Below the pieces are notes generated by a model that was not told the origin of the DNA, made no database searches, and saw only the letters and a program-made list of their open reading frames with translations. The position numbers were made by a program, and so were the translations under genes. 64,000 bases of DNA from Xanthobacter autotrophicus Py2 (lineage in GTDB: Bacteria > Pseudomonadota > Alphaproteobacteria > Rhizobiales > Xanthobacteraceae). The stretch is from the NCBI GenBank assembly GCA_000017645.1, contig CP000781.1:2074001-2138000 (forward strand). Direction: 5' to 3'. Below are positions 13,366 through 29,515 of this stretch, piece after piece. Position 1 is the first letter of the stretch. Each line of letters begins with the position of its first letter.

Positions 13366-15365
13366 CACGCGTCCTCCAGAACCAGAAGCTCGGCACCCTC
13401 GTCCACGAGGTCGCCCACGGCGAATTTCAGCGTCTTCACCTTGCCGTCGCGGGGCGCGGCGACGGTATGCTCCATCTTCATGGCCTCCACCACCACCAGA
13501 GCGGCGCCCTCCGCCACCTCCTGGCCTTCCTCCACCGCGATGCGGATGATGGTGCCGGGCATGGGGGCCACCAGCCGGCCGGCGGTGCCGGTGGCGGCCT
13601 GGGAGGCAAGGCGCGGGTCGATGAACTCAAGGCCATATTCCCCGCCGCGCACGAACACGGTGAGGTGCGCGGCGGTGCGGATCACCCGCGCCGACAAAGC
13701 GACGCCGTCGAGCCGGGCGCGCAGGGTGCCGTCGGCCTCCGCGTCGCCTTCCACGCTCATGTCGCCGCCGGGCAGCGAGAGGATGAAGCCGGAGGGCCGG
13801 AAATGGGCCCGCACGGCGATGCGCCGGTCGCGGTCGGCGAAGGTCAGGTCCACATGGGCGTCGCGGTTCAGCCGCCAGCCCGGCGCGAGGCCCCAGGGCG
13901 ACCAGGGATCGGCCGCGTCCACCGCCTCGGCGGACTGGCGCGCCTCCTCCTTGAGGACGAAGAGGGCGGCCAGCGCCAGCACCGTGTCGTCCACCGGCTC
14001 GGGCGGGGGCAACAGCAGGTCCTGGTGGCGGGCGATGAAGTTGGTGTCCAGCTCCGCAGCGGCGAAGGCGGGATGGGTGGCGATGGCCTTGAGGAACACC
14101 CGGTTGGTGGCAAGGCCCACCACTTCCGTGGCCGCGAGGGCCGCATCCAGCCGGCGCACCGCCTCGGTGCGGTCGGCGCCGGAGACGATGATCTTGGCGA
14201 TCATGGGATCGTAATGGATGGACACCGTGTCGCCGGCGCGCACGCCCGTATCCACCCGCGTGCCATTGAGGTGGAAGGGCAGCACCAGATGGTCGAGCCG
14301 GCCCACCTGCGGCAGGAAATCCCGCGCCGGGTCCTCGGCATAGAGCCGCACCTCGATGGCGTGGCCGTGAAGCGGGATGTCGGCCTGGGCGAGGGGCAGC
14401 TTTTCGCCCTGCGCCACCTTGATCTGCCACTCCACCAGATCTTGCCCGGTGATGCTCTCGGTGACCGGATGCTCCACCTGGAGGCGGGTGTTCATCTCCA
14501 TGAAATAGAAGTTCTCGCTCTCGGCGATGAATTCCACCGTGCCGGCGCCCACATAGCCCACCGCCTTGGCGGCATCCACGGCGGCCTTGCCCATGGCGGC
14601 GCGGCGCTCCGGCGTCATGCCGGGGGCGGGGGCCTCCTCCACCACCTTCTGGTGGCGGCGCTGGATGGAGCAGTCGCGCTCGTGCAGATAGACCGCATTG
14701 CCGTGGCTGTCGGCGAAGACCTGCACCTCGATATGGCGGGGGGTGGTGAGATATTTCTCCACCAGCACCCGGTCGTCGCCGAACGCGCTTTTGGCCTCGC
14801 GCTGGGCCGAGGCGAGGGCATCCGGAAATTCGGCGGCTGAGCGCACCACCTTCATGCCCTTGCCGCCGCCGCCGGCGGACGCCTTGATGAGCACGGGAAA
14901 TCCGATGCGCTCCGCCTCGCGGGCGAGCAGGCCCGCGTCCTGGTCCTCGCCGTGATAGCCGGGCACCAGCGGCACGCCGGCCTTCTCCATCAGTGCCTTG
15001 GCGGCGCTCTTGGAGCCCATGGCGCGGATGGCGGAGGCCGGCGGGCCGACGAAGACGATGCCCGCCTTCTCGCACGCCTCGGCGAAGGCGGCGTTTTCCG
15101 ACAGGAAGCCGTAGCCGGGATGGATGGCATCGGCCCCGCTCTTCCTCGCGGCGTCGAGAATGGCGTCGATGCGCAGGTAGCTCTCGCGGGCCGGCGCCGG
15201 GCCGATGGGATAGGCCTCGTCGGCGCTCGCCACGTGCAGCGCGTTGGCGTCCGCCTGCGAATAGACGGCGACGGTGCGGATGCCCATGGCCTTGGCGGTG
15301 CGCATCACGCGCACGGCGATCTCGCCGCGATTGGCGACGAGCAGGGTGCGGATCGCTTTGGTCAT
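13365..15365 (-). CDS. liuD: Methylcrotonyl-CoA carboxylase, biotin-containing alpha subunit
   Basis: Carries the biotin carboxylase, BT-like and biotin carrier parts of 3-methylcrotonyl-CoA carboxylase. The 666-aa product has the biotin carboxylase N-domain (LLVANRGEIAVRV), the ATP-grasp glycine loop KASAGGGGKGMKVV, MNTRLQVEHPVTE, and the biotinylation site EAMKMEH with the lysine at about residue 630. The domain order matches acyl-CoA carboxylase alpha subunits; the substrate assignment comes from the neighbours liuB, liuC and liuE. The ATG at 15365 overlaps the liuC stop (ATGA). Confidence 0.93.
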   Translation of the reverse strand: MTKAIRTLLVANRGEIAVRVMRTAKAMGIRTVAVYSQADANALHVASADEAYPIGPAPARESYLRIDAILDAARKSGADAIHPGYGFLSENAAFAEACEKAGIVFVGPPASAIRAMGSKSAAKALMEKAGVPLVPGYHGEDQDAGLLAREAERIGFPVLIKASAGGGGKGMKVVRSAAEFPDALASAQREAKSAFGDDRVLVEKYLTTPRHIEVQVFADSHGNAVYLHERDCSIQRRHQKVVEEAPAPGMTPERRAAMGKAAVDAAKAVGYVGAGTVEFIAESENFYFMEMNTRLQVEHPVTESITGQDLVEWQIKVAQGEKLPLAQADIPLHGHAIEVRLYAEDPARDFLPQVGRLDHLVLPFHLNGTRVDTGVRAGDTVSIHYDPMIAKIIVSGADRTEAVRRLDAALAATEVVGLATNRVFLKAIATHPAFAAAELDTNFIARHQDLLLPPPEPVDDTVLALAALFVLKEEARQSAEAVDAADPWSPWGLAPGWRLNRDAHVDLTFADRDRRIAVRAHFRPSGFILSLPGGDMSVEGDAEADGTLRARLDGVALSARVIRTAAHLTVFVRGGEYGLEFIDPRLASQAATGTAGRLVAPMPGTIIRIAVEEGQEVAEGAALVVVEAMKMEHTVAAPRDGKVKTLKFAVGDLVDEGAELLVLEDA

Positions 15366-16153
15366 GCGGCCCCCCAAGTGGGTTTTCTTTTTTCGAGGAA
15401 GGCGGAAACGCCCTCGCGTCCGTCGGCGCTCACGCGCTGGTCGGCGATGCGGCGGGCGGTGTCCTGCAGCACGGTCTGGTCGAAGGGCCGGTCCACGGCG
15501 GCGATCAGAGCCTTTGTGGCGGCCATGGCGCCGGGGCTCGCGGCCTTCAGCGCCTTGAGGTGCCGGACGATGGCGGCGTCCAGTTCCTCTGCGCTCACCA
15601 CCTCATGCACGAGGCCGAGGGCGAGCGCCGTTTCGGCGGAAAAGCGCTCGGCGGTGAGGAAATAGCGCCGCGCCTGCCGCGCCCCCATGGCCCGCACCAG
15701 ATAGGGGCTGATGACCGAGGGGATGAGGCCGATGCGCACCTCGGTGATCGCGAATTCCGCCTCCGGCACCGCGACGACGATGTCGCTGGCCGCGATCAGC
15801 CCGGTGGCGCCGGCAAAGGCCGAGCCGTGCACTCGCACCAGGGTGGGCTTGGGGCACAGGTCGATGGTGCGCATGAGCGTCGCCAGCGCCATGGCGTCGG
15901 CGAGGTTCTCCTGCCGGCTATAGGTCGCCATGCGACGCATCCAGTTGAGGTCCGCCCCGGCACAAAAGGTGGGGCCGTTGGCCTTCAGCAGGACGGCGTA
16001 GACCTGTGGATCGACGGCGGCGGCATCATAGGCGCGGGTCAGCGCGGCGATGAGCGCATCGTCGAAGGCGTTGCGCACCTCCGGACGGTCGAGGGTGATG
16101 ACGGCGACGCCATCCTCGACGGTGGTGATGAGGCCGGTGGTGTTGAGGCTCAT
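15362..16153 (-). CDS. liuC: Methylglutaconyl-CoA hydratase (crotonase family)
   Basis: Hydrates 3-methylglutaconyl-CoA to HMG-CoA. The 263-aa protein has the crotonase oxyanion-hole segments FCAGADLNWM and GSAFAGATGLIAASDIVVA, plus EVRIGLIPSVISPYLV, which resembles methylglutaconyl-CoA hydratases more than generic enoyl-CoA hydratases. Family membership is certain; the substrate is inferred from its place between the two carboxylase subunits. It begins 37 bp after liuB and overlaps liuD by 4 bp. Confidence 0.9.
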   Translation of the reverse strand: MSLNTTGLITTVEDGVAVITLDRPEVRNAFDDALIAALTRAYDAAAVDPQVYAVLLKANGPTFCAGADLNWMRRMATYSRQENLADAMALATLMRTIDLCPKPTLVRVHGSAFAGATGLIAASDIVVAVPEAEFAITEVRIGLIPSVISPYLVRAMGARQARRYFLTAERFSAETALALGLVHEVVSAEELDAAIVRHLKALKAASPGAMAATKALIAAVDRPFDQTVLQDTARRIADQRVSADGREGVSAFLEKRKPTWGAA

Positions 16154-16190
16154 GGGATGGTGCTCCGGACTTGGCCGTCAACGCGCGCCA

Positions 16191-17798
16191 TCACATGCGG
16201 AACACGCCGAAGCGCGTCTCCTGCTCGGGGGCGTTGAGCGCGGCGGAGAGGGCGAGGGCCAGCACCATGCGGGTGTCGGCGGGGTCGATGACGCCATCGT
16301 CCCACAGCCGCGCGGAGGAATAATAGGGATGGCCCTGCACCTCGTACTGGGTGCGGATGGGAGCCTTGAACGCCTCTTCCTCCTCGGCCGACCAGGTGCC
16401 GCCACGGGCCTCGATGCCGTCGCGCTTCACCTGGCCGAGCACGCCGGCCGCCTGCTCGCCGCCCATCACCGAGATGCGGGCATTGGGCCACATCCACAAA
16501 AACCGCGGATCGAAGGCGCGCCCGCACATGCCGTAATTGCCGGCGCCGAAGGAATTGCCGATCACCACCGTGAACTTGGGCACGGCGGCGCACGACACGG
16601 CGGTGACGAACTTCGCCCCGTCCTTGGCGATGCCGCCCGCCTCATACTTCCGCCCCACCATGAAGCCGGTGATGTTCTGCAGGAACACGAGGGGAATATT
16701 GCGCTGGCAGCACAATTCCACGAAGTGCGCGCCCTTCAGCGCGCTCTCGGAGAACAGGATGCCGTTGTTGGCGATGATGCCCACCGGATAGCCGAAGATG
16801 CGGGCAAAGCCGGTCACCAGCGTGGGGCCATAAAGCGGCTTGAACTCGTCGAATTCGGACCCGTCCACGATGCGGGCGATGATCTGCCTCACGTCGAAGG
16901 GCTGCTTGGGGTCGGCCGAGACGATGCCGTAAATGTCCTTCGTGTCGTAGAGCGGCGCGCGGGGCTCGCGGATGTCGAGGGAATGGGCCTTGGTGGCGTT
17001 GAGATCGGCGACGATGGAGCGGGCGATGCCCAGCGCGTGGGCGTCGTTCTCCGCCATGTGGTCGGCGACGCCGGAGGTGCGGGTGTGCACGTCCGCCCCG
17101 CCCAGCTCCTCGGCGGTGACCACCTCGCCGGTGGCGGCCTTTACCAGCGGCGGGCCGCCAAGGAAGATGGTGGCCTGGTTCTTCACCATGATGGACTGGT
17201 CGGCCATGGCTGGCACATAGGCGCCGCCCGCCGTGCACGAGCCCATGACCACGGCGATCTGCGGGATGCCTTCCGCCGACATGTTGGCCTGGTTGAAGAA
17301 GATCCGGCCGAAATGCTCGCGGTCGGGAAAGACCTCGTCCTGGTTCGGCAGGTTGGCGCCGCCGGAATCCACCAGATAGATGCAGGGCAAATGGTTTTCG
17401 CGGGCGATGGCCTGGGCCCGCAGGTGCTTCTTCACGGTGATGGGATAATAGGTGCCGCCCTTCACCGTGGCGTCGTTGGCGACGATGACGCATTCGCGGC
17501 CCGAGACGCGGCCGATGCCGGTGATGATGCCGGCGGCGGGCACCTCGTCGCCATACATGCCGTGGGCGGCAAGCTGCGACAGTTCGAGGAAGGGCGAGCC
17601 GGTGTCGAGCAGGGTGCGGATGCGGTCCCGCGGCAAGAGCTTGCCGCGCTTCAGGTGTCGCTCGCGCGCCACTTCCCCGCCGCCCTCGGCGACGCGCTCC
17701 ACCGTGGTGCGCAAGTCGGCGACGGAGGCTTCCAGGGCCTGACTGTTGCGGCGGAAGGTGTCGGAGCGGCGGTCCACCGCGTCCTCAATGATCGCCAT
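16191..17798 (-). CDS. liuB: Methylcrotonyl-CoA carboxylase beta (carboxyltransferase) subunit
   Basis: Transfers carboxyl from biotin to 3-methylcrotonyl-CoA. The 535-aa length is exactly that expected for MCC beta. Carboxyltransferase motifs visible are [43 protein letters not shown] and [16 protein letters not shown]. The ATG at 17798 gives the usual MCC start; upstream in-frame codons lack a better ribosome site. It is the first gene of the liu operon; no isovaleryl-CoA dehydrogenase (liuA) is next to it, so that step must be encoded elsewhere. Confidence 0.94.
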
Positions 17799-17942
17799 GA
17801 GCGCTCTCGCCCCCGAAAAGACGGGCCGATGAAAGCGGCCCAACTGCCATTGACCGAACGGAGACTGACGCGCGCCCGTCGCCTCAATGGGCGGGCGGCA
17901 GGTGGGCGCGTCATCCTCCGGTGCCGGTCATTGCCGGCTTGG

Positions 17943-17958
17943 AAACGATCGTACGTTT
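17943..17958. promoter_or_regulatory. Candidate TetR-type operator upstream of liuB
   Basis: AAACGATCGTACGTTT has inverted arms AAACG/CGTTT and an inner perfect palindrome ACGATCGT. It is in the 203-bp gap between the TetR gene and liuB, about 145 bp before the liuB start. TetR regulators of fatty-acid or branched-chain catabolism often bind such AAACG-type palindromes; assignment to the neighbouring TetR gene is inference. Confidence 0.45.
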
Positions 17959-18001
17959 TTTTCTGGGCCGCGCAAGGGCCATGGCGGCGGGAAGGGGGCT
18001 T

Positions 18002-18706
18002 TTACGCGCGCGCCGTCTTGGGCCGGGCAACGCGGGGTTTGGCGCGCGCGCCGCTGTCGCGCGGCTGGGCGGCGGCGGCCTCAAGCGGTTTGGCGCGGGC
18101 GGCGGTTGCCGGGCCGGGCCCGGTGGCGCCGTCCACCACGAGACCGGTGTAGATGTCCACCAGTTCGTCCTGGGAGAGGCGCCCGCCGGGTCGGTACCAC
18201 ATGCAGATGCCGGTGAGCATGGAGATGATGGCGTAGGTGGCGACCTTGGGCTCACTCACCTGGAACACGCCTTCCTGCGCGCCCTGCCGCAGGATCTCCT
18301 CCAGCAGGCCCTCGTAGCGCCGGCGCAGGGCGACCACCACGGCGCGGTGCTCGTCCTCCAGGCTGCGGATCTCCATGTTGGCGATGAAGACATGGGCCAT
18401 GCGCGTCATGTGATAGCGCAGGTGAAAGGCGGAGAAGGTCTTCAGCCGCGCCAGCGGGTCGGTGATGCCCTCCAGGTCCGCCTCGGCCTTGCCGAGCAGG
18501 TCCTCCATGTGGTCGCGCACGATGTCGAACAGCAGGTTCTGCTTGTTCTCAAAATATTTGTAGAGCGAGCCGGACTGCAGCCCCACCTCGGCGGCGAGCT
18601 GGCGCAGGCTCATGGCCTCGTAGCCGTGCTTGTAGATGAGCTTGACGCCCGCCTGGCGGATGGCTTCGGCGGTACGGGCGCCGTTGGAACCGATGGTGCG
18701 CGCCAT
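18002..18706 (-). CDS. TetR/AcrR-family transcriptional regulator
   Basis: A 234-aa regulator. The N-terminal helix-turn-helix spans AEAIRQAGVKLIYKHGYEAMSLRQLAAEVGLQSGSLYKYFENKQNLLF, in which the recognition helix GLQSGSLYKYF is typical TetR. The rest is a helical ligand-binding domain of unknown specificity, ending in an Ala/Pro/Lys-rich tail. The ATG at 18706 starts close to the HTH; a GTG at 18736 would add ten residues. It lies directly upstream of liuB on the same strand, so control of leucine/isovalerate catabolism is the simplest inference. A 15-bp palindrome CGGATCGATGATCCG at 18761-18775 could be an autoregulatory site. Confidence 0.88.
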   Translation of the reverse strand: MARTIGSNGARTAEAIRQAGVKLIYKHGYEAMSLRQLAAEVGLQSGSLYKYFENKQNLLFDIVRDHMEDLLGKAEADLEGITDPLARLKTFSAFHLRYHMTRMAHVFIANMEIRSLEDEHRAVVVALRRRYEGLLEEILRQGAQEGVFQVSEPKVATYAIISMLTGICMWYRPGGRLSQDELVDIYTGLVVDGATGPGPATAARAKPLEAAAAQPRDSGARAKPRVARPKTARA

Positions 18707-18760
18707 GGCCTTCCGGAACTCTGTGCGCCCGGCCACGGGGTCGGGAGCGGGTGGGACATG

Positions 18761-18775: not shown

Positions 18776-18983
18776 GCCGGAGGGGCGACTTTAGTCTGAC
18801 GCGCGCCACCCCCGTTTGGCAATGGCATCCTGCGACAAGAATTGCCGCTTGACCACAATAAAAAAGAACGCTTGATTGTTTATTGAACCCGGCGAAACGA
18901 CCGGGCACGCGCCAGGCCAGCCGCATGAGCGGGGCGCAAAGAACGCAGGGAGACGACGACATGGCGACCGACAGGGCGCGATA

Positions 18984-20618
18984 TCAATCCGTGTGCATCG
19001 AGATGGCGTGGGATGCCTGTCCGCTGTAGTGGACGCAGCCGTCGGCATCCATGTGCCCGGTATCCCCGATGATGTAATAGGCGCTTCCGAACCTGAATCT
19101 GGCTTTCGTCGCGACCTCGTCCTTGCTGTAGGCGCGAAACCAGAAAAGCGGCGAGCGCCGGACGTGGATCGCCAGTATTCCTTCGGCGCCCACGCCCAGT
19201 TCTGCACCCTTGTCGTCGAGGACGACGAGGGAAAAGCCGGGCGCGACCCGGCCGACGGAAACCCGGTTCAGGGAGCGTGGATCGTGCGGGTCATGCTTCA
19301 TGCCTATGATCATCCCCGCTTCGCGGTGTCCGTACTGGTTGATCAGGGGCACGCCGAGCTTCTGCGTCACCCAGGCGATGATGTCCCGAGGCAGCGGCTC
19401 GCCGCCGACGGTCACCACGCGCAGCGCGAGCTGGTGCGAGGCCGCGCTGGGATCGCCGCGCCGCCAAGCCTTGATCTGGGAGGGGGCGGCGGTGAGGTTG
19501 GTGACACGGAATTTCGACAGGACGCGATAGCCCTGCGAGACATCGTAGGGTCCATCGCAGAACAGGATGGACGTGCCGATCAGGAGCGGGCCGACGAGAC
19601 CGTAGAAGATCCCGTATTCCCAGCCCTGATCCGTCATGTTCCAGAACACGTCCTCGTCCCGGACATCAAGCCCGAGGCGCATGTATTGCTCGATTGCGGC
19701 CAGGGCGCGGACAGGGGTGAACAGTCCGTACCTGGGTTCGACCGTTTTCGTTGAATATGTCATGAGGAAAGGGTCGTCTGCCGCATAGGTCGCGGCCTCG
19801 GCCAGCGGCTCGGCCTCGTAGATCGATGACCAGAACTGGGTGACCCGGCCTTCTATGCGGTTGATGTGGTCTCCTTCCACGAGAAAGACCGGCGTTGATG
19901 GCTTGATGTATTTGCGGGCGCGCTCCACCAGCACCCGATTTGCAACGATGGCTTTTACGTCGCTCGACTCCAGGCGGGCGTTCACCGCCGAGGCGGAATA
20001 GGTGGAGAACAGCGGCATGTAGACGGCGCCAACCCGCCAGATGGCGAGCGCGGCGATGATCAGTTCGACGCCCTTCGGCAGCATGACGGCAACGCAATCG
20101 CCTTTCCTGATGCCGATGGTCGCCAATACACGAGCAAAGCGAGATGAATAGTCGGCAAGCCTGCCAAAGCTCAGTTCCGATGTCTGGCCCGAGACGGATT
20201 CATGGATCATGGCCGGATGCGAGCGCTTGCCGGGCAGGTGCCGGTCGCACAGCAGATGAGCGAGGGGAATGGCGTCGCCACGATATTCCGGCCGTTGGTA
20301 CAGGCTCGGAACCGATGCGGCATCGCTTTCCGTCGCGGCCTCCGCCGGCATCGCGCTCGCACGGCGGCCGAGGCTCAGGCAGAAGGCGCCGAGGGTGTAG
20401 AGGCGGGACGCCGGGTCATAGGCGAGCAGGCCCTCGTGAACCAGCGTCGCCGCCAGGCGGTGGGTCGTGGGCTTCGACAGGCCGGTGTGCGCCATGAGGT
20501 CGGCAAGCCGCGCGCCATGGGTCGGCGCGTCGACCACCGCCCGCAGAACGGCAACGGCGCGGGACAAGCTTTGAGCCCCCTTGGGGGAGGTAGAGTCTGG
20601 ATCCAAAGGCGCAGTCAT
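18984..20618 (-). CDS. IclR-type HTH domain fused to a truncated, degenerate acyl-CoA synthetase (AMP-binding) domain
   Basis: A 544-aa hybrid. Residues about 15-85 form an IclR N-terminal winged helix (SLSRAVAVLRAVVD, then ADLMAHTGLSKPTTHRLAATL and YDPASRLYTLG). Residues about 105-544 are an ANL-family adenylation fold: FSTYSASAVNARLESSDVKA, NMTDQGWEYGIFYG, AAPSQIKAW, VVTVGGEPLP, NQYGHREAG (A5-like) and IIGDTGHMDADG (A7-like). The ATP-binding P-loop, normally TSGTTGxPK, reads TYSTKTVEP, and the protein stops at the hinge, lacking the C-terminal lid with the catalytic lysine. The usual IclR effector domain is absent. It is probably a ligand-sensing regulator with a dead synthetase domain, but this is inference. 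It is divergent from the ABC/CoA-ligase operon and its start codon abuts a palindromic operator. Confidence 0.85.
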   Translation of the reverse strand: MTAPLDPDSTSPKGAQSLSRAVAVLRAVVDAPTHGARLADLMAHTGLSKPTTHRLAATLVHEGLLAYDPASRLYTLGAFCLSLGRRASAMPAEAATESDAASVPSLYQRPEYRGDAIPLAHLLCDRHLPGKRSHPAMIHESVSGQTSELSFGRLADYSSRFARVLATIGIRKGDCVAVMLPKGVELIIAALAIWRVGAVYMPLFSTYSASAVNARLESSDVKAIVANRVLVERARKYIKPSTPVFLVEGDHINRIEGRVTQFWSSIYEAEPLAEAATYAADDPFLMTYSTKTVEPRYGLFTPVRALAAIEQYMRLGLDVRDEDVFWNMTDQGWEYGIFYGLVGPLLIGTSILFCDGPYDVSQGYRVLSKFRVTNLTAAPSQIKAWRRGDPSAASHQLALRVVTVGGEPLPRDIIAWVTQKLGVPLINQYGHREAGMIIGMKHDPHDPRSLNRVSVGRVAPGFSLVVLDDKGAELGVGAEGILAIHVRRSPLFWFRAYSKDEVATKARFRFGSAYYIIGDTGHMDADGCVHYSGQASHAISMHTD

Positions 20619-20635
20619 GTCTCACAATGTGAGAC
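20619..20635. promoter_or_regulatory. Operator O1, perfect 17-bp palindrome
   Basis: GTCTCACA-A-TGTGAGAC, perfect 8-bp arms. It directly touches the ATG (20618) of the IclR/synthetase hybrid gene, leaving no clear Shine-Dalgarno sequence, so binding would block that gene's expression. Shares the consensus GTCTCAYANTRTGAGAC with O2 at 20724. Confidence 0.88.
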
Positions 20636-20681: not shown

Positions 20682-20710
20682 TTGAAACATCTGAGATGAC
20701 GCTAGATAAT
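20682..20710 (+). promoter_or_regulatory. Candidate sigma-70 promoter of the ABC/CoA-ligase operon
   Basis: TTGAAA (20682-20687), 17-bp spacer, GATAAT (20705-20710). Transcription would start near 20717, 7 bp before operator O2. The match is good for both boxes, but no transcript data are available. Confidence 0.6.
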
Positions 20711-20723
20711 GATGATCAATATC

Positions 20724-20740
20724 GTCTCATAATATGAGAC
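20724..20740. promoter_or_regulatory. Operator O2, perfect 17-bp palindrome
   Basis: GTCTCATA-A-TATGAGAC, perfect 8-bp arms, just downstream of the predicted start of the ABC operon transcript. Its centre (20732) is 105 bp from the centre of O1 (20627), close to ten helical turns, which would place bound proteins on the same DNA face and allow looping over the promoter. Confidence 0.88.
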
Positions 20741-20786
20741 ATGGCTCAGAGAAGCCGCCCCGTGTACGGGAATGAGGGAGGGGAAT

Positions 20787-21629
20787 ATGGCGCTACCCGC
20801 AGCTTCGGCTGGGGCTGATCCGGGCACGGCTGCCCTCTTGAGCATCGAGGCGATCTCGCTCCGGTTCGGCGGCCTCAAGGCGCTGAGCGATGTGAGCTTC
20901 CATGTGCGCAATGGCGAGCTGTTCTCCATCATCGGGCCGAACGGCGCCGGCAAGACCTCCATGCTCAACTGCATCTCCGGGCGCTATACGCCGAGCGAGG
21001 GGCGGGTGGTGTTCGACGGCCAGGATGTGACCCGGCTGAAGCCCAACCGTCGCGCCGCCATCGGCATCGGCCGCACCTTCCAGAACCTGGCCCTGTTCAG
21101 CCACATGAGCGTGCTCGACAACATCATGGTCGGCCGCCATCACTTGTTAAAGAACAACTTCCTTACCGGTGCGCTCTACTGGATCGGCGGCGCACAGAAG
21201 GAAGAGCTGGAGCATCGCCGCAAGGTGGAGGAGGTGATCGACTTCCTCGACATCCAGCACGTGCGCAAGGCTGCCGCCGGCACCCTGTCCTACGGCCTCA
21301 GGAAGCGGGTGGAGCTGGCCCGCGCGGTGGCGCTGGAGCCCAAGCTCATCCTGCTCGACGAGCCCATGGCGGGCATGAACCTGGAAGAGAAGGAGGACAT
21401 GGCCCGCTACATCGTCGATCTCAACGAGGAGTGGGGCATGACCATCATCATGATCGAGCACGACATGGGGGTGGTGATGGACATTTCCCACCGCGTCATG
21501 GTGCTGGATTTCGGCCGCAAACTGGTGGAGGGCGAGCCTGCCGAGGTGCTGGCCGATCCCCATGTGCGCAAGGCCTATCTGGGCGAGGACGATCTCGATG
21601 AAGCGGCCCCCGCCGCCATGACCGCGTGA
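20787..21629 (+). CDS. Branched-chain-amino-acid-type ABC transporter ATPase (LivG-like)
   Basis: One of two ATPases of a Liv-type importer. The 280-aa protein has Walker A GPNGAGKTS, the signature LSYGLRKRVELARAV, Walker B LILLDEPMAG and the LivG-type phrase MNLEEKEDMARYI, with the H-loop IMIEHDMGVV. The ATG at 20787 follows GAGGGAGGGGAAT, a strong ribosome site. It is the first gene of a long plus-strand operon and ends 8 bp before an acyl-CoA ligase gene. Liv-type transporters in such CoA-ligase clusters usually import carboxylic or aromatic acids rather than amino acids, which is inference here. Confidence 0.93.
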   Translation: MALPAASAGADPGTAALLSIEAISLRFGGLKALSDVSFHVRNGELFSIIGPNGAGKTSMLNCISGRYTPSEGRVVFDGQDVTRLKPNRRAAIGIGRTFQNLALFSHMSVLDNIMVGRHHLLKNNFLTGALYWIGGAQKEELEHRRKVEEVIDFLDIQHVRKAAAGTLSYGLRKRVELARAVALEPKLILLDEPMAGMNLEEKEDMARYIVDLNEEWGMTIIMIEHDMGVVMDISHRVMVLDFGRKLVEGEPAEVLADPHVRKAYLGEDDLDEAAPAAMTA

Positions 21630-21637
21630 GGTCCGCC

Positions 21638-23590
21638 ATGGCCGAAATCACCGCGACCTATCCGGACATCACCGTCCACGACACCATGCCGAAGCTGCTG
21701 GCGCTCAACGCCCGCACCCATCCCAACGACACCTGGCTGCGCGAGAAGGACCTCGGCATCTGGATTTCCTACACCTGGGCGCAGGTGGCCGAACGGGTGC
21801 GCAACATCACCCTCGGCTTCACCACGCTGGGCGTCGCCCGCGGCGACGTGGTGGGCCTGCTCGGCGACAACCGCCCCGAATGGCTGATGGGGGAGATCGC
21901 CACCCATGCGCTGGGCGGCATGAGCCTTGGCATCTATCGCGATGCGCTGGCCGACGAGGTGGCCTATCTCGTCACCTACGCGGACGTGGCGGTGGTGTTC
22001 GCCGAGGACGAGGAGCAGGTGGACAAGCTGCTCTCCCTCGATGAAAAGATCCCCACCGTCCGCCACATCGTCTATGCCGACCCGCGCGGCATCCGCAAAT
22101 ACGACGACCCGCGCCTCATCTCCCTGAAGGAGCTGGAAGCGCGCGGCGCGGTGGAGGCGGCGCGCGATTCCGGGGCCTATGACCGGCTGGTGGCCCAGGG
22201 CAAGGCCGAGGACGTGGCCATCCTGTGCACCACCTCGGGCACCACCTCCCACCCCAAGCTCGCCATGCTCACCGGCGGCGCGCTGCTGCGCCACTGCCGC
22301 GCCTATCTGGAGATGGACCCGCGCACCAGCGCCGACGAATATGTCAGCGTGCTGCAGATGCCGTGGATCATGGAACAGATCTACGCCTTCGGTCAGGCGC
22401 TCATCTCCCGCATGAAGGTGAACTTCGTGGAGGAGCAGGAAACGCTCATGGCCGACATGCGCGAGATCGGCCCCTCCTTCGTGCTGTTCGCCCCGCGCGT
22501 ATGGGAGCAGATCGCCGCCGACGTGCGCTCGCGCATGATGGATTCCTCGGCGCTCAAGCGCGGCATGTTCGAGCTGGGCATGAAGCTCGGGCTTAAGGCC
22601 CTGGAGCAGGGCCGCCGCTCGCCGCTCGCGGACTTCATCCTGTTCCGGGCGCTGCGCGACCGGCTCGGTTTTTCGCACCTGAAATCCGCCGCCACCGGCG
22701 GGGCGGCGCTGGGGCCGGACACCTTCCGCTTCTTCCTCGCGCTGGGCGTGCCCATGCGCCAGCTCTATGGCCAGACCGAGCTGCTCGGCGCCTACACGCT
22801 GCACAAGGCGCAGGACGTGGATTTCGATACCGTGGGCGTGCCCTTCGACGGCGTCGAGATCCGCATCGACGATCCCGACCCCAACGGCCTTGGCGAGGTG
22901 GTGACGCGTCACGGCAATGCCTTCACCGGCTATTTCCGCAATGACGAGGAAACCGCGAAATCCTTCGTGGACGGCGGCTGGATGCGCACCGGCGATGCCG
23001 GCTTCTTCAACGATCGCGGCCACCTTGTGGTCATCGACCGCATCCGCGACATGGCGCGGACCGAGCACGGCGATCGCTTCTCGCCGCAATACATCGAGAA
23101 CAAGCTGAAATTCTCGCCCTATGTGGCCGAGGCGGTGGTGCTGGGCGACGGGCGCGACAGCCTCGCCGCGCTCATCTGCATCCGCTTCTCCATCGTCTCC
23201 AAATGGGCGGAGAAGAACCGCATTTCCTTCACCACCTATACGGACCTGTCGGCCCGGCCCGAAGTCATCGCGCTGCTGCGCAAGGAAGTGGAGGCGGTGA
23301 ACCGCACCCTGCCGGAGAAGCAGCGCATCGGCCGCTTCCTGCTGCTCTACAAGGAGCTGGATGCCGACGACGGCGAACTGACGCGTACCCGCAAGGTGCG
23401 CAGGGGCGTCATCAACGAGCGCTACGGCACCATCATCGACGCCATGTATGCGGGCGAGAAGGTGATCGACGTGGACACCACCATCACCTTCCAGGACGGC
23501 ACCCGCCAGCGCATCAAGACCACACTGGACGTGATCGACCTCGGCGCACCCCCGCGCCGGGACGACGATACAAGGCGGAGGGCGGCGTGA
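21638..23590 (+). CDS. Long-chain-type acyl-CoA synthetase (AMP-forming)
   Basis: Activates a carboxylic acid to its CoA thioester via an acyl-adenylate. The 650-aa protein has an intact ATP-binding P-loop LCTTSGTTSHPKLAML near residue 200, the A5-like motif QLYGQTELLGAY, and A7/A8 motifs WMRTGDAGFFNDRGH and VIDRIRDMA. It resembles the ACSL/FadD15 group by length and by the segment between P-loop and A5. The ATG at 21638 has GAGG 6 nt upstream; an overlapping GTG at 21626 is a weaker option. It lies between the two halves of the ABC transporter operon, suggesting capture of the imported acid as CoA ester. Confidence 0.9.
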   Translation: MAEITATYPDITVHDTMPKLLALNARTHPNDTWLREKDLGIWISYTWAQVAERVRNITLGFTTLGVARGDVVGLLGDNRPEWLMGEIATHALGGMSLGIYRDALADEVAYLVTYADVAVVFAEDEEQVDKLLSLDEKIPTVRHIVYADPRGIRKYDDPRLISLKELEARGAVEAARDSGAYDRLVAQGKAEDVAILCTTSGTTSHPKLAMLTGGALLRHCRAYLEMDPRTSADEYVSVLQMPWIMEQIYAFGQALISRMKVNFVEEQETLMADMREIGPSFVLFAPRVWEQIAADVRSRMMDSSALKRGMFELGMKLGLKALEQGRRSPLADFILFRALRDRLGFSHLKSAATGGAALGPDTFRFFLALGVPMRQLYGQTELLGAYTLHKAQDVDFDTVGVPFDGVEIRIDDPDPNGLGEVVTRHGNAFTGYFRNDEETAKSFVDGGWMRTGDAGFFNDRGHLVVIDRIRDMARTEHGDRFSPQYIENKLKFSPYVAEAVVLGDGRDSLAALICIRFSIVSKWAEKNRISFTTYTDLSARPEVIALLRKEVEAVNRTLPEKQRIGRFLLLYKELDADDGELTRTRKVRRGVINERYGTIIDAMYAGEKVIDVDTTITFQDGTRQRIKTTLDVIDLGAPPRRDDDTRRRAA

Positions 23591-23717: not shown

Positions 23718-24611
23718 ATGCAATCCCAGCTCCTGCTCCAGCTCATCATCAACGGGCTCATCATCGGCACGCTCTATGGCGTGGTCGGCATGTGCTTCGT
23801 GCTCATCTACAAGGCCTCGCAGGTGGTGAACTTCGCCCAGGGCGAGTTCCTGCTCATCGGCGCCTGGACCTGCTGGTGGCTGCTCACGGCGTGGAACATC
23901 CCCTTCTTCTGGGGCTTCCTCATCGCCGTGTGCTTCATGATGGTGTTCGGCATCGTGGTGCAGATGGTGGTGCTGCGCCCGCTCATCGGCGAGCCGATCA
24001 TCTCGGTGATCATGGTCACCATCGGCATGTCCATCTTCTTCCAGGCGCTGATGAAGTGGATGTTCGGCACCTTCGCCCAGCCGTTCCCGCCCATCTTCAG
24101 CGTGGACAAGGTGAACATCATGGGCCTGCAGGTGCAGACGGCCTATCTCATGTCCACCGGCGTGAGTTTGGCCATCATGGCGGGGTTCGCCTGGTTCTTT
24201 AAGTATTCGCGCCTCGGCCTTGCCATGCGCGCCACCGCCTTCTCCCAGCAGGTGGCGCAGTCGCTCGGCATCTCGGTGCGCCAGGTGTTCGCTTTGTCCT
24301 GGGGCATCTCGGCGGCGGTGTCGGCGGTGGCCGGCGTGGTGGTGGGCATCGTGAACGGGGTGTCCTCGGCGCTGTCCTACTTCGGCATCAAGGTGTTCCC
24401 GGCGGTGATCCTCGGCGGCCTCGACAGCGTGTTCGGGGCGGTGGTGGGCGGCCTCATCATGGGCCTGCTGGAAAACCTCGCCCAGTTCTTCGACAGCCAG
24501 TACCTGAAGTGGGGCAACCTCTACGAGATCGTCCCGTTCTACGCGCTCATCATCATCCTGATGATCAAGCCCTACGGGCTGTTCGGCACCCGCGACATCG
24601 AGAGGGTCTGA
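23718..24611 (+). CDS. Liv-type ABC transporter permease (LivH-like)
   Basis: Inner-membrane permease of 297 aa with about eight hydrophobic helices. The N-terminal NGLIIGTLYGVVGMCFVLIY and NFAQGEFLLIGAW are hallmarks of LivH-family permeases, as are ATAFSQQVAQSLGI and GVVVGIVNGVSS. It is followed after 3 bp by the second permease, so the two are surely co-translated. Its partners are the ATPases at 20787 and 27275 and the binding protein at 25748. Confidence 0.94.
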   Translation: MQSQLLLQLIINGLIIGTLYGVVGMCFVLIYKASQVVNFAQGEFLLIGAWTCWWLLTAWNIPFFWGFLIAVCFMMVFGIVVQMVVLRPLIGEPIISVIMVTIGMSIFFQALMKWMFGTFAQPFPPIFSVDKVNIMGLQVQTAYLMSTGVSLAIMAGFAWFFKYSRLGLAMRATAFSQQVAQSLGISVRQVFALSWGISAAVSAVAGVVVGIVNGVSSALSYFGIKVFPAVILGGLDSVFGAVVGGLIMGLLENLAQFFDSQYLKWGNLYEIVPFYALIIILMIKPYGLFGTRDIERV

Positions 24612-24614
24612 TCC

Positions 24615-25685
24615 ATGGCCATCGACACCCTTCGCCCGTGCGGCGACTACCGCACCAGCTACAAGGCCGACCAGACCATCTTCGCGACCCGGCTCACCAT
24701 GCTGTTCTGCGTGGCGGGCGTGGTGCTGGCCTGCTTCGCGCCGTTCTTCTTCTCGCGCTACATCCTGAGCCTGATGATCCAGATCGGGTATCTGGGCATC
24801 GCCGCGCTGGGGCTGAACATCCTCGTCGGCTTTTCCGGGCAGATCTCGGTGGGCCATGCGGTGTTCTTCGGCTTCGGCGGATTCGCCTCCGCCTTCCTCG
24901 CCGACAAGGGCGTGCCGGTGCCGCTGGCTATCGTGCTTGCGGGACTGTGGACCACGGCGGTGGGCCTGTTGTTCGGACTGCCCGCCGCGCGGGTGAAGGG
25001 GCTCTATCTCGCCATCGCGACGCTGGCCGCCCAGTTCATCCTGCAGGATTTCTTCGTGCGGGCGGAATGGTTCACCGGCGGCACCCACGGCGCCATGGCC
25101 GCGCCCTTCACCCTGTTCGGCTATGACCTCTCCGGCGACGACCGCTATTTCTACGTGGTGCTGTTCTTCGTGGTGGTCATGTATCTGGGCGCCGCCAACC
25201 TGATGCGCAGCCGCGACGGCCGGGCGCTGATCGCGGTGCGCGACCATTATCTCTCGGCGGAGATGATGGGGGTGAACCTCACCAAGTATCGCACCATGGC
25301 GTTCGGCATCTCCTCCTTCTATGCCGGCATCGGCGGCGCGCTCTATGCCCATTATGTGGGGTTCATGTCAGTGGAGGGGCTGGATATCCTGTTCTCCATC
25401 CAGTTCCTGGGCATGATCATCATCGGCGGGCTCGGCTCCATCATGGGCTCGCTCATGGGCACCATCTTCATGGTGCTTTTGCCCGAGGCCACCGGCTGGC
25501 TCGCCTCCGCGCTGTCGGGTAGCGTCATCGACCAGGTGCTTCACCTGAAGGACGGCCTCACCTACATGCGCGAGATGCTGATCGGCCTCACCATCATCCT
25601 GTTCCTGATCTTCGAGCCGGACGGCCTCGCCCACCGCTGGCGCCTCATCAAGGCCTATTGGAAGCTCTATCCCTTCTCTTACTGA
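24615..25685 (+). CDS. Liv-type ABC transporter permease (LivM-like)
   Basis: A 356-aa inner-membrane permease. IAALGLNILVGFSGQISVGHAVFFG is the LivM family hallmark (GLNILVGFSGQ shown in part), followed by RVKGLYLAIATLAAQFI, SRDGRALIAVRDHYLSAEMMG and a C-terminal IIGGLGSIMGSLMGT. It starts 3 bp after livH. The segment after residue 330 ends in HRWRLIKAYWKLYPFSY, usual for this family. Confidence 0.94.
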   Translation: MAIDTLRPCGDYRTSYKADQTIFATRLTMLFCVAGVVLACFAPFFFSRYILSLMIQIGYLGIAALGLNILVGFSGQISVGHAVFFGFGGFASAFLADKGVPVPLAIVLAGLWTTAVGLLFGLPAARVKGLYLAIATLAAQFILQDFFVRAEWFTGGTHGAMAAPFTLFGYDLSGDDRYFYVVLFFVVVMYLGAANLMRSRDGRALIAVRDHYLSAEMMGVNLTKYRTMAFGISSFYAGIGGALYAHYVGFMSVEGLDILFSIQFLGMIIIGGLGSIMGSLMGTIFMVLLPEATGWLASALSGSVIDQVLHLKDGLTYMREMLIGLTIILFLIFEPDGLAHRWRLIKAYWKLYPFSY

Positions 25686-25747
25686 TCAAAAGGACAGAGG
25701 CCACGCAGAACGGCCCGTCCAAAACGGAAACCCAAGGAGAGAACAAG

Positions 25748-27028
25748 ATGAAGAAGCTCACCCTGTCCCTCGTCTCGGCGCTGGCGCTCACGGCCGCAGC
25801 GCCCGCTCTGGCCCAGTCCATCAACATCGGCCATCTCGCCGATTATTCCGGCGGCACCTCGGACGTGGGCCAGCCCTACGGGCAGGCCATCCAGGACACC
25901 ATCGCGTGGATCAACGCCAATGGCGGCGTCAACGGCAAGAAGATCGATTCCGACTTCAACGAATACGGCTACCAGGTGCCCCGCGCGCTCGCCGCCTTCA
26001 AGAAGTGGGTGGGCACCAACAAGGTGGTGGCCATCCAGGGCTGGGGCACGGCGGACACCGAGGCCCTCGTGGGCATGGTGACCAAGGAAGAGATTCCCTA
26101 TTATTCCGGCTCCTACTCCGCCTCTCTCACCGACCCGAAGGGCAAGGTGAACGAGAAGAGCGAGCGGGCCGCGCCGTTCAACTTCTTCTACGGCCCGTCC
26201 TATTCGGATGCCGCCCGCGCCATGGTGAAGTGGGCCGCCGACGACTGGAAGGCCAAGGGCAAGCCCGGCAAGCCCAAGTGGGTGCACATGGGCGCCAACC
26301 ACCCCTTCCCCAACTCGCCCAAGGCGGCGGCCGAGGCCTATGCCAAGGAGCTGGGCTTCGAGGTGCTGGACCCCATCACCTTCGCCCTCACGCCGGGTGA
26401 CTACACCCCCCAGTGCCTGACGCTGAAGCAGTCGGGCGCCAACTACGCCTATCTCGGCAACACCGCCGGCTCCAACATCTCGGTGCTGAAGGCCTGCAAG
26501 ACGGCGGGCGTGGACGTACAGTTCTTCGGCAACGTGTGGGGCATGGACGAGAACGCCGCCAAGGCCGCCGGCGAGGCGGCGAACGGCGTCGTCTTCCCGG
26601 TGCGCACCGGCGTCACCTGGGCCGGCAGCGCGCCCGGCATGGCGACCATGAAGGAGATTTCCAAGATCTCCGATCCCTCGGGCACGGCCTATCGCCCGGT
26701 GCACTACCTCGCCGCCGTCTGCACCGCCCTCTACATGAAGGAGGCCATGGAGTGGGCGGACAAGAACGGCGGCGTGACCGGCGTGAAGATCCGCGACGGC
26801 ATGTACCAGAAGAGCGACTGGGTGCCGAAGGGCACCGAGGGCGTGTGCAATCCCTCCACCTGGACCGCCACCGACCACCGCCCCACCACCCGCGTGGACC
26901 TCTACCGCTCGGTGGTGAACGGCGCCACCGACGCCTCGGTGGCGGACCTGGTGAAGAGCGGCGTCATCAAGCTGGAGAAGGTCGCCACCATCGACCTGCC
27001 CCGCAAGACGGAACTGCAGGGCTGGTGA
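25748..27028 (+). CDS. Periplasmic substrate-binding protein of the Liv-type transporter
   Basis: A 426-aa type I periplasmic binding protein with a signal peptide (MKKLTLSLVSALALTAAAPA, cleavage after ALAQ). The mature part starts SINIGHLADYSGGTSDVG, typical of the Peripla_BP_6 family linked to aromatic and short-chain acid uptake. AAGGAGAGAACAAG precedes the ATG at 25748. It is the most highly expressed type of component in such operons, which may be why a REP pair follows the gene. Ligand unknown; the neighbouring CoA ligases suggest a carboxylate. Confidence 0.9.
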   Translation: MKKLTLSLVSALALTAAAPALAQSINIGHLADYSGGTSDVGQPYGQAIQDTIAWINANGGVNGKKIDSDFNEYGYQVPRALAAFKKWVGTNKVVAIQGWGTADTEALVGMVTKEEIPYYSGSYSASLTDPKGKVNEKSERAAPFNFFYGPSYSDAARAMVKWAADDWKAKGKPGKPKWVHMGANHPFPNSPKAAAEAYAKELGFEVLDPITFALTPGDYTPQCLTLKQSGANYAYLGNTAGSNISVLKACKTAGVDVQFFGNVWGMDENAAKAAGEAANGVVFPVRTGVTWAGSAPGMATMKEISKISDPSGTAYRPVHYLAAVCTALYMKEAMEWADKNGGVTGVKIRDGMYQKSDWVPKGTEGVCNPSTWTATDHRPTTRVDLYRSVVNGATDASVADLVKSGVIKLEKVATIDLPRKTELQGW

Positions 27029-27098: not shown

Positions 27099-27207
27099 GT
27101 CATCCCCCGGCCTGACCGGGGGATCCACCCTTGCGTTCGGCGGGTGCCGAACATCCGGGAGCTGACCCGGCCCTGCCATGGATCCCCCGGTCAAGCCGGG
27201 GGATGAC
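27099..27207. repeat. Inverted REP pair between binding-protein and ATPase genes
   Basis: Two 29-bp units at 27099-27127 (GTCATCCCCCGGCCTGACCG...) and 27179-27207 are inverted with a single mismatch and 51 bp between them. Each unit is itself a hairpin (CCCCCGG / CCGGGGG). Such structures commonly protect upstream mRNA and lower expression of downstream genes. Related single units are at 29622, 46463 and 62911. Confidence 0.85.
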
Positions 27208-27274
27208 GCCGGTGCGGCAGGGCCGATCGGGGCCGCTCCACCGGGATGCTGGCAAGACATATGAGGCAAACGCC

Positions 27275-28111
27275 ATGGCAGAGGCCGCACTGAAGTTCGA
27301 ACCATCCGCCGAGACCGCGTCGCCGCTGCTGGCGGTGGACAATATCGAGGTGGTCTACAACGACGTCATCCTGGTGCTGCGCGGGCTTTCGCTGAAGGTG
27401 CCCAAGGGCCAGATCGTCGCCCTGCTCGGCTCCAATGGCGCCGGCAAGTCCACCACGCTGAAGGCCATCTCCGGCCTGCTCAGGACCGAGGACGGCGAGA
27501 TCACGCGCGGCGACGTCACCTTCCTCGGCGAGCGGATCAACGGCATCGAGCCGGACAAGATCGTGCGGCGCGGCATCTTCCAGGTGATGGAGGGCCGCCG
27601 CATCATCGCCGACATGACGTGCCTGGAAAACCTGCGCCTCGGCGCCTTCACCCGGCGCGACAACGAGGTGAAGAGCGACATCGAGCGGGTCTACGAATAC
27701 TTCCCGCGCCTGAAGGAGCGCACCGGGCTCGCCGGCTATCTGTCCGGCGGCGAACAGCAGATGCTGGCCATTGGCCGCGCCGTGATGGCCCGGCCCAAGC
27801 TCATCCTCATGGACGAGCCCTCCATGGGCCTGTCGCCGCTGCTGGTGAAGGAGGTGTTCGCCATCATCAAGAAGCTCAACGAGGATCTGGGCGTGACCAT
27901 CCTCCTGGTGGAGCAGAATGCGCGGGTGGCGCTCTCGGTGGCGGACTACGGCTACATCATGGAGCAGGGCAAGATCGTGCTCGACGGCACGGCCGACATG
28001 CTGCGCTCCAACGAGGACGTGAAGGAATTCTACCTCGGCCAGGGCGGCGGCGAGGAGCGCAAGTCGTTCAAGAACCTCAAGAGTTTCAAGCGCCGCAAAC
28101 GGTGGTTGTGA
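27275..28111 (+). CDS. Branched-chain-amino-acid-type ABC transporter ATPase (LivF-like)
   Basis: Second ATPase of the importer, 278 aa. Walker A GSNGAGKST, signature YLSGGEQQMLAIGRAV, Walker B LILMDEPSMGLSP and the LivF-type phrase LLVEQNARVALSVADYGYI are all intact. The ATG at 27275 is preceded by GAGG 9 nt away. The C-terminus ends in a Lys/Arg-rich stretch (SFKNLKSFKRRKRWL) longer than in standard LivF. It lies 246 bp after the binding-protein gene, past the REP pair. Confidence 0.93.
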   Translation: MAEAALKFEPSAETASPLLAVDNIEVVYNDVILVLRGLSLKVPKGQIVALLGSNGAGKSTTLKAISGLLRTEDGEITRGDVTFLGERINGIEPDKIVRRGIFQVMEGRRIIADMTCLENLRLGAFTRRDNEVKSDIERVYEYFPRLKERTGLAGYLSGGEQQMLAIGRAVMARPKLILMDEPSMGLSPLLVKEVFAIIKKLNEDLGVTILLVEQNARVALSVADYGYIMEQGKIVLDGTADMLRSNEDVKEFYLGQGGGEERKSFKNLKSFKRRKRWL

Positions 28112-28137: not shown

Positions 28138-28240
28138 CCCCCTCCCAACCCTCGCCCGCGAGCGGGAGAGGGCTTTTCCCGCTCTCTCCGCCATGGCCCC
28201 CTCTCCCGCTTGCAGGGGTGGGCTGGGGAGGGGGAAGGGG
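28138..28240. repeat. Two inverted copies of the dispersed GC-rich element
   Basis: The unit at 28138-28173 (CCCTCCCAACCCTCGCCCGC...) and the unit at 28196-28240 (CCCCCTCTCCCGCTTGCAGG...) are inverted relatives. The first hairpin is followed by CTTTT and could act as a terminator after the livF-like gene, with the next gene depending on read-through or its own promoter. Confidence 0.65.
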
Positions 28241-28270
28241 CGTCCGGATTCTGGCAATAGAGACTGTCAC

Positions 28271-29515
28271 ATGACCGATCCGAACCGCCATTACGATGCG
28301 TGCGAGACCCGCGATCCCGAAGCCCGTGAACAGGCACTGATGGCGGCGCTTGCCGCCCAGGTCGCTCACGCCAAGGCGAAGGCGCCCTATTTCGCGCGCC
28401 TCTTCAAGGACGTGGACCCGCAGGCGGTGACCACCCGCGCGGCGCTGGCGAAGCTCCCCGTCACCCGCAAGTCGGACCTTTTGGAGATCCAGCCGAAGAG
28501 CTATCCCTTCGGCGGCCTCAATGCGACGGCGCCGGGCAAGCTGGCGCGCATCTTCATGTCGCCGGGGCCGATCTATGATCCGGAAGGCCATGGCGCCGAC
28601 TTCTGGCGCTTCGCCCGCGGCCTGTTCGCGGCCGGCTTCCGGGCCGGCGACATCGTCCACAACTGCTTTTCCTATCACCTCACCCCGGCCGGCTCGATGA
28701 TCGAGAGCGGCGCCCATGCGCTCGGCTGCGCGGTGGTTCCGGCGGGGGTCGGCCAGACCGACCTGCAATTGCGCGCCATCGCCGACATCCGACCCCAGGG
28801 CTATGGCGGCACGCCGTCCTTCCTGAAGATCCTGGTGGACAAGGCGCGGGAGACCGGCACCGACATTTCCTCCCTCAAGAAGGCTCTGGTGACGGGGGAA
28901 GCCTTCCTGCCCGCCCATCGCGCCGAGCTGAAGGCCGCGGGCATTGCCGCCCGGCAGTGCTATGGCTCCGCCGACCTCGGCCTCGTCGCTTACGAGAGCG
29001 AGGCGGAAGAGGGCATGATCGTGGACGAGGGCTGCCTCGTGGAAATCCTGCGCCCCGGCACCGGCGATCCGGTGGAAGCCGATGGTGAGGTCGGCGAGGT
29101 GGTCGTCACCCTGTTCGAGCCCGACTATCCCCTGGTGCGTTTCGCCACCGGCGATCTTTCGGCGGTGCTGCCGGGCTTCAGCCCCTGCGGGCGCACCAAC
29201 GTCCGCCTCAAGGGCTGGATGGGCCGCGCCGACCAGGTGACCAAGATCCGCGGCATGTTCGTGCACCCGGTGCAGGTGAGCGCGGCGGTGAAGAAGCATC
29301 CGGCGGTGGCGAAGGCCCGCCTCGTGGTGGATCGCATCGGCGATGCCGACGACATGCTGCTGGAGGTGGAAGTTCAGGACGCCGCAGCGCTGTCGCAGGA
29401 GGCGCTGCTGGACGACCTGCGCGCCACCACCAAGCTGCGCGGCCGCGTGGCCCTGCTGGTGCCGGGTACGCTGCCGGCTGACGCCAAGACCATCGAGGAC
29501 CGCCGGCCGGTGTGA
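28271..29515 (+). CDS. PaaK-like (phenylacetate-CoA ligase family) adenylate-forming protein
   Basis: A 414-aa member of the PaaK family. It has KAPYFARLFKD at the start, GYGGTPSFLKIL, QCYGSADLGLVAYE (A5-like), VRFATGDLSAVLPG and the lid domain KGWMGRADQVTKIRGMFVHP. The P-loop region reads FMSPGPIYDPEG instead of the SSGTTGKPT of true PaaK, so ATP binding may differ. A role in activating an aromatic or other acid taken up by the adjacent transporter is inferred. It starts at the ATG at 28271, beyond two repeat units, and is the last gene of the plus-strand cluster. Confidence 0.85.
   Translation: MTDPNRHYDACETRDPEAREQALMAALAAQVAHAKAKAPYFARLFKDVDPQAVTTRAALAKLPVTRKSDLLEIQPKSYPFGGLNATAPGKLARIFMSPGPIYDPEGHGADFWRFARGLFAAGFRAGDIVHNCFSYHLTPAGSMIESGAHALGCAVVPAGVGQTDLQLRAIADIRPQGYGGTPSFLKILVDKARETGTDISSLKKALVTGEAFLPAHRAELKAAGIAARQCYGSADLGLVAYESEAEEGMIVDEGCLVEILRPGTGDPVEADGEVGEVVVTLFEPDYPLVRFATGDLSAVLPGFSPCGRTNVRLKGWMGRADQVTKIRGMFVHPVQVSAAVKKHPAVAKARLVVDRIGDADDMLLEVEVQDAAALSQEALLDDLRATTKLRGRVALLVPGTLPADAKTIEDRRPV

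Follow-up and report, generated by a model that had tools for sequence, protein, structure and literature searches.

What does a protein do in which the winged helix of an IclR-type regulator is joined to the core of an acyl-CoA synthetase? The question is raised by a 544-aa protein encoded at 18984..20618 on the minus strand of the window, a 64,000-nucleotide stretch of the Xanthobacter autotrophicus Py2 genome (contig CP000781.1, positions 2,074,001 to 2,138,000). It combines an IclR winged helix with a lid-less ANL adenylation core, and we propose it to be an autorepressing regulator. In our assessment it very probably binds DNA, regulates the divergent operon and senses through a non-catalytic ANL domain, whatever its ligand. 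This reading draws on features legible in the sequence: the fusion, the loss of catalytic motifs, purifying selection, a tree compatible with a single origin, synteny, and operators that share helical phase and overlap a promoter region.

The open reading frame contains no internal stop over its 544 codons, as the original prediction had stated. A Pfam profile search placed the predicted winged helix (HTH_IclR, PF09339) at residues 17-69 (20412..20570, minus strand), with 50.9 bits against a cut-off of 22, and the predicted ANL fold (AMP-binding, PF00501) at residues 131-485 (19164..20228, minus strand), with 165 bits against a cut-off of 29.9; similarity of the core to ligases extends to approximately residue 540. 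Both motifs named beforehand are present, A5 as YGHREAG at residues 429-435 (19314..19334, minus strand; Glu is kept and the usual Thr/Ser is replaced by Arg) and A7 as YIIGDTG at residues 515-521 (19056..19076, minus strand; Asp519 is kept). The earlier description had missed that the A3 phosphate loop (residues 288-298; 19725..19757, minus strand) is degenerate, reading YSTKTVEPRYG against the canonical YTSGTTGxPKG. The A8 position is Gln. Only 8 residues follow the hinge position, Ser536; the C-terminal lid and its A10 motif are therefore absent, and Pfam found no lid domain in the window protein. The IclR effector domain is likewise absent: PF01614 (IclR_C) was not listed for the window protein at a maximum E of 10, a setting at which HMMER filters still remove most matches above approximately E 0.1, and a classic IclR of the same genome scored 53 bits as a control. 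An ordinary IclR protein with an overlooked effector domain was rejected on this comparison. The best NCBIfam model for the ANL core was acetate--CoA ligase PRK04319 (203.6 bits against a cut-off of 729), and the best solved-structure match of the protein was PDB 5u2a. Within its own genome the gene is its sole full-length match; each of the 18 other matches is confined to the ANL part or the winged helix.

The fused architecture is real and conserved. Both domains are carried by 50 of the 117 homologues of the first search (precomputed Pfam); 48 of these are without the lid domain PF13193 and two possess it. A second search, with P0051 as the query, added lid-bearing fusions, 31 of which were aligned from the best 120 of 1460 matches; homologue searches scored the 8000 candidates sharing most words. 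Public-genome contigs, scanned for 80 of 120 relatives, yielded at least 39 lid-less loci with a winged helix (L020-L057 and L061) and a fragment, L058, in Xanthobacter, Aquabacter, Azospirillum, Arenibaculum, a record titled Roseomonas and metagenome-assembled genomes. The lid-bearing form appeared in the same scan in two Bradyrhizobium records (L059 and L060). Full-length relatives are 95-96% identical in other Xanthobacter and approximately 50% identical in Azospirillum, which excludes a sequencing, frameshift or assembly artefact, including the break between the domains that had been set beforehand as refuting the fusion. The C-terminal end is common to 38 of 40 lid-less loci (the fragment included) within 0-5 residues; L053 is 27 residues longer than this common end point. 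The frame of L052 (9743-11677) is interrupted in the draft genome of Azospirillum sp. B506, with an open stretch of 378 codons only, reflecting either a draft error or a broken copy.

The fusion occurs in 12 of 149 sampled genomes and four of 47 genera of the window's family, and few more turned up in wider samples. Among 397 genomes of the order, 16 had a match at the cut-off; of these matches, the window's alone extended into the winged helix. Matches were found in three of 385 genomes of the class sample (all fused) and in two of 378 of the phylum sample (one free-standing). The family of G809 contributed one of 39 genomes, and the genus of G024 three of 265, namely the L059 and L060 loci again and L141. 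In 13 Azospirillum records the fusion is borne on large replicons recorded as plasmids (H1-H13, L172); it is annotated as an AMP-binding protein in 10 of these, two are unannotated and one has no feature at that position.

Directly across from the fusion gene lies a plus-strand operon. It begins with a livG-like ABC ATPase gene (20772..21629), whose start is probably the ATG at 20787, behind GGGAGGGG, and continues with a FadD-like acyl-CoA synthetase that has its own lid domain (21626..23590; PF00501 and PF23562), a livH-like permease (23718..24611) and a livM-like permease (24615..25685), the latter named from position, conservation and the annotation of its Azospirillum counterpart. A livK-like solute-binding protein (25658..27028) and a livF-like ABC ATPase (27131..28111) follow, the starts of both reading frames probably being placed too far upstream, and a PaaK-like CoA ligase (28193..29515) is the last conserved gene. 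The livG and fadD genes adjoin the fusion gene divergently in 39 of 39 lid-less loci with flank. They are followed by livHMKF in 37 of the 39, the remaining contigs ending first, and by paaK in 36, the other three contigs ending. Since many loci come from closely related strains, these counts refer to loci and not to independent events.

Two predicted 17-bp operators, neither assigned a strand, lie between the fusion gene and this operon. O1 (GTCTCACAATGTGAGAC, 20619..20635) abuts the ATG of the regulator, and O2 (GTCTCATAATATGAGAC, 20724..20740) lies 105 bp from O1 and 13 bp past the -10 hexamer of a sigma-70-like promoter for the divergent operon (TTGAAA-17-GATAAT, 20682..20710, plus strand). 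A 400-bp stretch contained no other promoter of this kind, where 0.1 were expected. Two 17-bp palindromes occur between the regulator and livG in 38 of 39 lid-less loci; most Azospirillum loci have sites like GGTCCATATTGTGGACC and GGTCCATAATATGGACC. Their spacing is 104-106 bp in 10 loci (9.9-10.1 turns at 10.5 bp per turn) and 116-118 bp, the Azospirillum spacing, in 28 loci (11.0-11.2 turns). At L057 (Azospirillum sp. SYSU D00513) a single site, GTTCCAAAATATGGAAC, is recognisable, and the operator may therefore have drifted there. Of 39 sequences (the window plus 38 loci), 38 have such a promoter between their operators, at a distance of 11-24 bp from the end of the -10 hexamer to O2; no promoter was found between the operators of L042 by the rule used. 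L058, a fragment that has no winged helix and no upstream flank, was left out of the operator and promoter counts, L057 was left out of the promoter count, and L059 and L060 were counted separately as lid-bearing.

Operator mismatch counts across the loci, here and below, ignore the three central bases. Measured against a consensus drawn from the same loci, sites with 0-1 mismatches numbered 70 in 10,381 intergenic positions as opposed to none in 769,950 other positions of these loci; the respective numbers were five and 12 at two mismatches, and four and 166 at three. The window pattern had four matches in the 64 kb, that is, the two sites on both strands, against 0.08 expected by chance. No site other than O1 and O2 was found in the genome for this pattern at up to two mismatches; at three mismatches there were four more places, near background, as a reversed control gave three. 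This layout would suit a looping repressor that also controls its own gene, and, with the synteny, it strongly suggests that the fusion protein regulates the divergent operon. The original prediction had named this CoA-ligase/transporter operon as the source of the sensed molecule. Synteny and the paired operators fit this operon as the target, and we infer DNA binding, repression and looping from them.

A different gene faces the lid-bearing fusions. In all four loci examined (L059 and L060 from Bradyrhizobium, L141 from the same genus sample and L136 from G809), the fusion gene stands opposite a tannase/feruloyl esterase gene, identified by PF07519 in L059, L060 and L136 and by 94% identity in L141. 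Paired sites are present here too, with mismatches of 0 and 2 in L059, 0 and 1 in L060, 0 and 2 in L141, and 2 and 2 in L136. Their spacing is 104 bp in L059 and L141, 105 bp in L060 and 138 bp, approximately 13.1 turns at 10.5 bp, in L136; the start codons in these four loci are unsure. The same type of regulator would thus appear to control acid-related targets of different kinds.

Relatives of the operon also exist apart from the fusion. FadD relatives were found in 58 of the 149 genomes sampled in the family, all 12 fusion-bearing ones among them, and the operon start was examined in six of the 46 FadD-bearing genomes without it. In three close relatives tetR is directly opposite livG. Of three more distant ones, two have a Crp/Fnr-type gene (PF00027 and HTH_Crp_2) opposite livG, and the third (L176) has a frame at that position that is similar by appearance. 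No operator at up to two mismatches was found in any of the six operon-start stretches, and matches at three mismatches occurred in four. The fusion gene and its operators thus resemble a cassette inserted where tetR and livG meet in the Xanthobacter line, though loss from the other genomes is conceivable. Upstream of the TetR gene of the window (18002-18736) is a AAAAAAGAACGCTTGATTGTTTA-like box at 18860-18882, and relatives without the fusion (L173-L175) have a comparable box in the tetR-livG interval. Being common to these, it may be a TetR operator, and the operon may have changed its regulator.

The lid-bearing relatives bear on the origin of the protein. In P0051, which has the lid, the part ending at residue 108 matches a classic IclR of the window's genome with 57% identity over 95 residues, a similarity that ends near the start of the latter's effector domain; the window protein is 41% identical to the same IclR over 80 residues. 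The claim that a synthetase fold stands in place of the effector domain is thereby well supported. A tree was built from 64 ANL cores selected from the sets (19 lid-less, 18 lid-bearing and 27 free-standing); it was a quick, unrooted tree that had no bootstrap and included the A3 columns. All fused rows fell on one side of a branch with an SH-aLRT of 99, and within that side all lid-less rows fell on one branch with an SH-aLRT of 100; lid-bearing rows did not form a single clade. The topology fits a single fusion followed by a single later loss of the lid. On the simplest reading, an ANL enzyme replaced the effector domain of an IclR protein, and one branch afterwards lost its lid. In the window's genome, the classic IclR gene whose winged helix is the genome's best match to the fusions (L011:1411-2331) lies approximately 0.8 kb from another ANL gene (G000:C1:3125737), an arrangement from which such a fusion could arise.

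Could the fused core still be a working acyl-CoA ligase that also binds DNA? Such a bifunctional trigger enzyme would agree with a fold that is complete to the hinge, with intact A5 and A7, and with the names that relatives bear in their sources (AMP-binding protein, acetyl-CoA synthetase or similar). In ANL enzymes the positions compared here serve phosphate, hinge and ribose binding. Canonical A3 is kept in 57 of 60 free-standing rows, in none of 34 lid-bearing fused rows and in none of 52 lid-less fused rows, and its Lys in 58 of 60, 20 of 34 and none of 52. Among readable rows, the hinge Asp is found in 59 of 59 free-standing, five of 32 lid-bearing and none of 51 lid-less rows, all 51 of the last having Ser. 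The A10 Lys is present in 59 of 59 readable free-standing and 20 of 29 readable lid-bearing rows, and 50 of 52 lid-less rows have no residue at that position. By comparison, the A5 Glu is invariant (60 of 60, 34 of 34 and 52 of 52), as is the A7 Asp in readable rows (59 of 59, 33 of 33 and 51 of 51). The A5 Thr/Ser has become Arg in 49 of 52 lid-less rows, and Arg occupies A8 in four of 33 readable lid-bearing and 39 of 51 readable lid-less rows. The fragment P0147 was left out of these counts, and P0148 was counted as free-standing. The A3, A10 and hinge losses rule against a working ligase in the lid-less form, and we regard a trigger enzyme as very improbable. Some lid-bearing fusions may have residual activity, which is conceivable because of their numbers for the A3 Lys, A10 Lys and A8 Arg. 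A decaying or accidental fusion that serves no function, at the other extreme, would also explain lost catalytic motifs and the interrupted frame of L052. Against this, six Xanthobacter pairs gave a dN/dS of 0.05-0.12 in the ANL part, compared with 0.16-0.28 in the winged helix and 0.27-0.95 in the short linker (one pair saturated). Purifying selection acts on the ANL part, which speaks against a pseudogene, and conservation extends from Xanthobacter to Azospirillum together with operators and synteny; we consider a functionless fusion barely credible. With its catalytic motifs lost and its dN/dS low, the core is therefore maintained although catalysis is very unlikely. These data fit a pseudoenzyme sensor, although the retained pocket residues may be structural only.

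Two further readings concern what the core senses. Pseudoenzymes often act by pairing, and the pseudo-ligase core might pair with active FadD or PaaK, whose substrate load would then release the DNA; both genes are within the same conserved operon. The examined lid-bearing relatives face a tannase gene and not a ligase operon, however, which makes a fixed partner unlikely across the family. Moreover, the ANL core is best matched by acetate--CoA ligase models and FadD by FadD11, so the two are not close kin. Regulation by protein contact is accordingly improbable in our estimate. The other reading is a variant inside our preferred explanation, with which its odds overlap: the sensor may recognise an acyl-CoA instead of an acid or adenylate. 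In such pathways the CoA ester is often what the regulator senses, and BzdR, which reads benzoyl-CoA, is a precedent (PMC3602430). Yet the lid is deleted in the lid-less clade and the A5 and A7 positions are invariant, and we consider this variant unlikely.

We therefore return to the regulator with a non-catalytic sensor as the preferred explanation. The protein would be a one-component transcriptional regulator whose IclR-type winged helix binds O1 and O2, which lie in phase on the DNA. The complex would probably loop the segment of approximately 105 bp that contains the promoter of the livG-fadD-livHMKF-paaK operon and so repress both the divergent operon and the regulator's own gene. Its sensor would be an acyl-CoA synthetase core minus the triphosphate loop and the mobile lid, with the acid- and adenosine-pocket positions kept. 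The DNA would be released once the sensor binds a small molecule that the operon handles. This is most likely a carboxylic acid, either by itself or, possibly, together with AMP or in adenylate form.

The absent lid bears on the class of this ligand. The lid of ANL enzymes completes the CoA site, and because it is missing here an acyl-CoA is less likely to be the ligand. An acid alone, an acid with AMP or an adenylate appears reasonably likely; a CoA ester would be a minority candidate, and a protein with no ligand somewhat less probable again. More specifically, it is possible, though we hold this tentatively, that the family forms a regulator class of its own, in which the dead adenylation domain reads the adenylate, either as acid plus AMP or as acyl-AMP from the operon's own ligase. 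If so, the cell would sense flux through acid activation and not the acid or the CoA ester, and loss of the lid would have converted a passing stage of catalysis into a lasting sensing state.

As to the identity of the acid, the fusion gene of the window lies beside a cluster (12460-18736) of HMG-CoA lyase, biotin-carboxylase-type subunit, enoyl-CoA hydratase, carboxyltransferase and FadR-like TetR genes. The Xanthobacter and Aquabacter neighbours, named from domain and order, resemble genes for 3-methylcrotonyl-CoA carboxylation and HMG-CoA lyase. Such a cluster was adjacent to the fusion in none of 29 other lid-less loci with flank, and related genes lay 6-10 kb away in five of the 29 (L046, L048, L050, L052 and L054). 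One annotated Azospirillum plasmid has mmsB, isobutyryl-CoA dehydrogenase and malonyl-CoA synthase as neighbours and names the fusion AMP-binding protein. Among solved structures, the solute-binding protein matches generic branched-chain-type binding proteins, and FadD best matches aryl-acid and feruloyl ligases, at low score and over part of its length; neither match settles a substrate. Taken together, gene context suggests an acid linked to branched-chain catabolism for the lid-less clade and aromatic acids for the tannase-linked clade.

No IclR-ANL regulator was named in the papers listed by searches of one open-access library, and we treat the architecture as a tentative lead to something undescribed so far. 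To our knowledge, no ANL adenylation enzyme has been described as a transcription-factor sensor, though we put this forward with little weight. ANL adenylation enzymes are a very large superfamily covering many acids, and a modular design of this kind would be usable for acid biosensors. Annotations as acetyl-CoA synthetase or AMP-binding protein would be corrected, and the repression model can be tested directly on the paired operators with their helical phasing.

Compared with known systems, the fusion shares its adenylation core and its A5 and A7 motifs with AcsA-like synthetases (PRK04319, 5u2a) but differs from them by a dead phosphate loop, the lack of a lid and a DNA-binding domain in front. 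HutC and FarR have DNA-binding domains of the GntR family, unlike the IclR type of the fusion. They resemble it in a sensor derived from an enzyme fold, described as chorismate lyase-like effector domains (PMC3602430), although that fold is other than ANL. With the IclR family, which includes BhcR (PMC11323563) and of which the solved members 1mkm and TtgV 2xrn were matched by the classic IclR of the window's genome as query, the fusion has in common PF09339 above the cut-off and, in its candidate operators, palindromic sites near a divergent promoter; it differs in having an ANL core instead of the defining PF01614. A parallel is BzdR of Azoarcus sp. CIB, described as an HTH-XRE domain joined to a shikimate-kinase-like domain: it too couples a DNA-binding domain with an effector domain of enzyme origin, controls genes for an acid and lost the activity in evolution (PMC3602430). 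The folds of BzdR are of other origin, XRE and shikimate-kinase-like as opposed to IclR winged helix and ANL core, and its path from enzyme to regulator had to be rebuilt with synthetic chimeras, according to the same account. For the fusion described here, the free-standing enzyme, the lid-bearing inactivated fusion and the lid-less fusion would together form a naturally occurring series that documents how an enzyme turns into a regulator.
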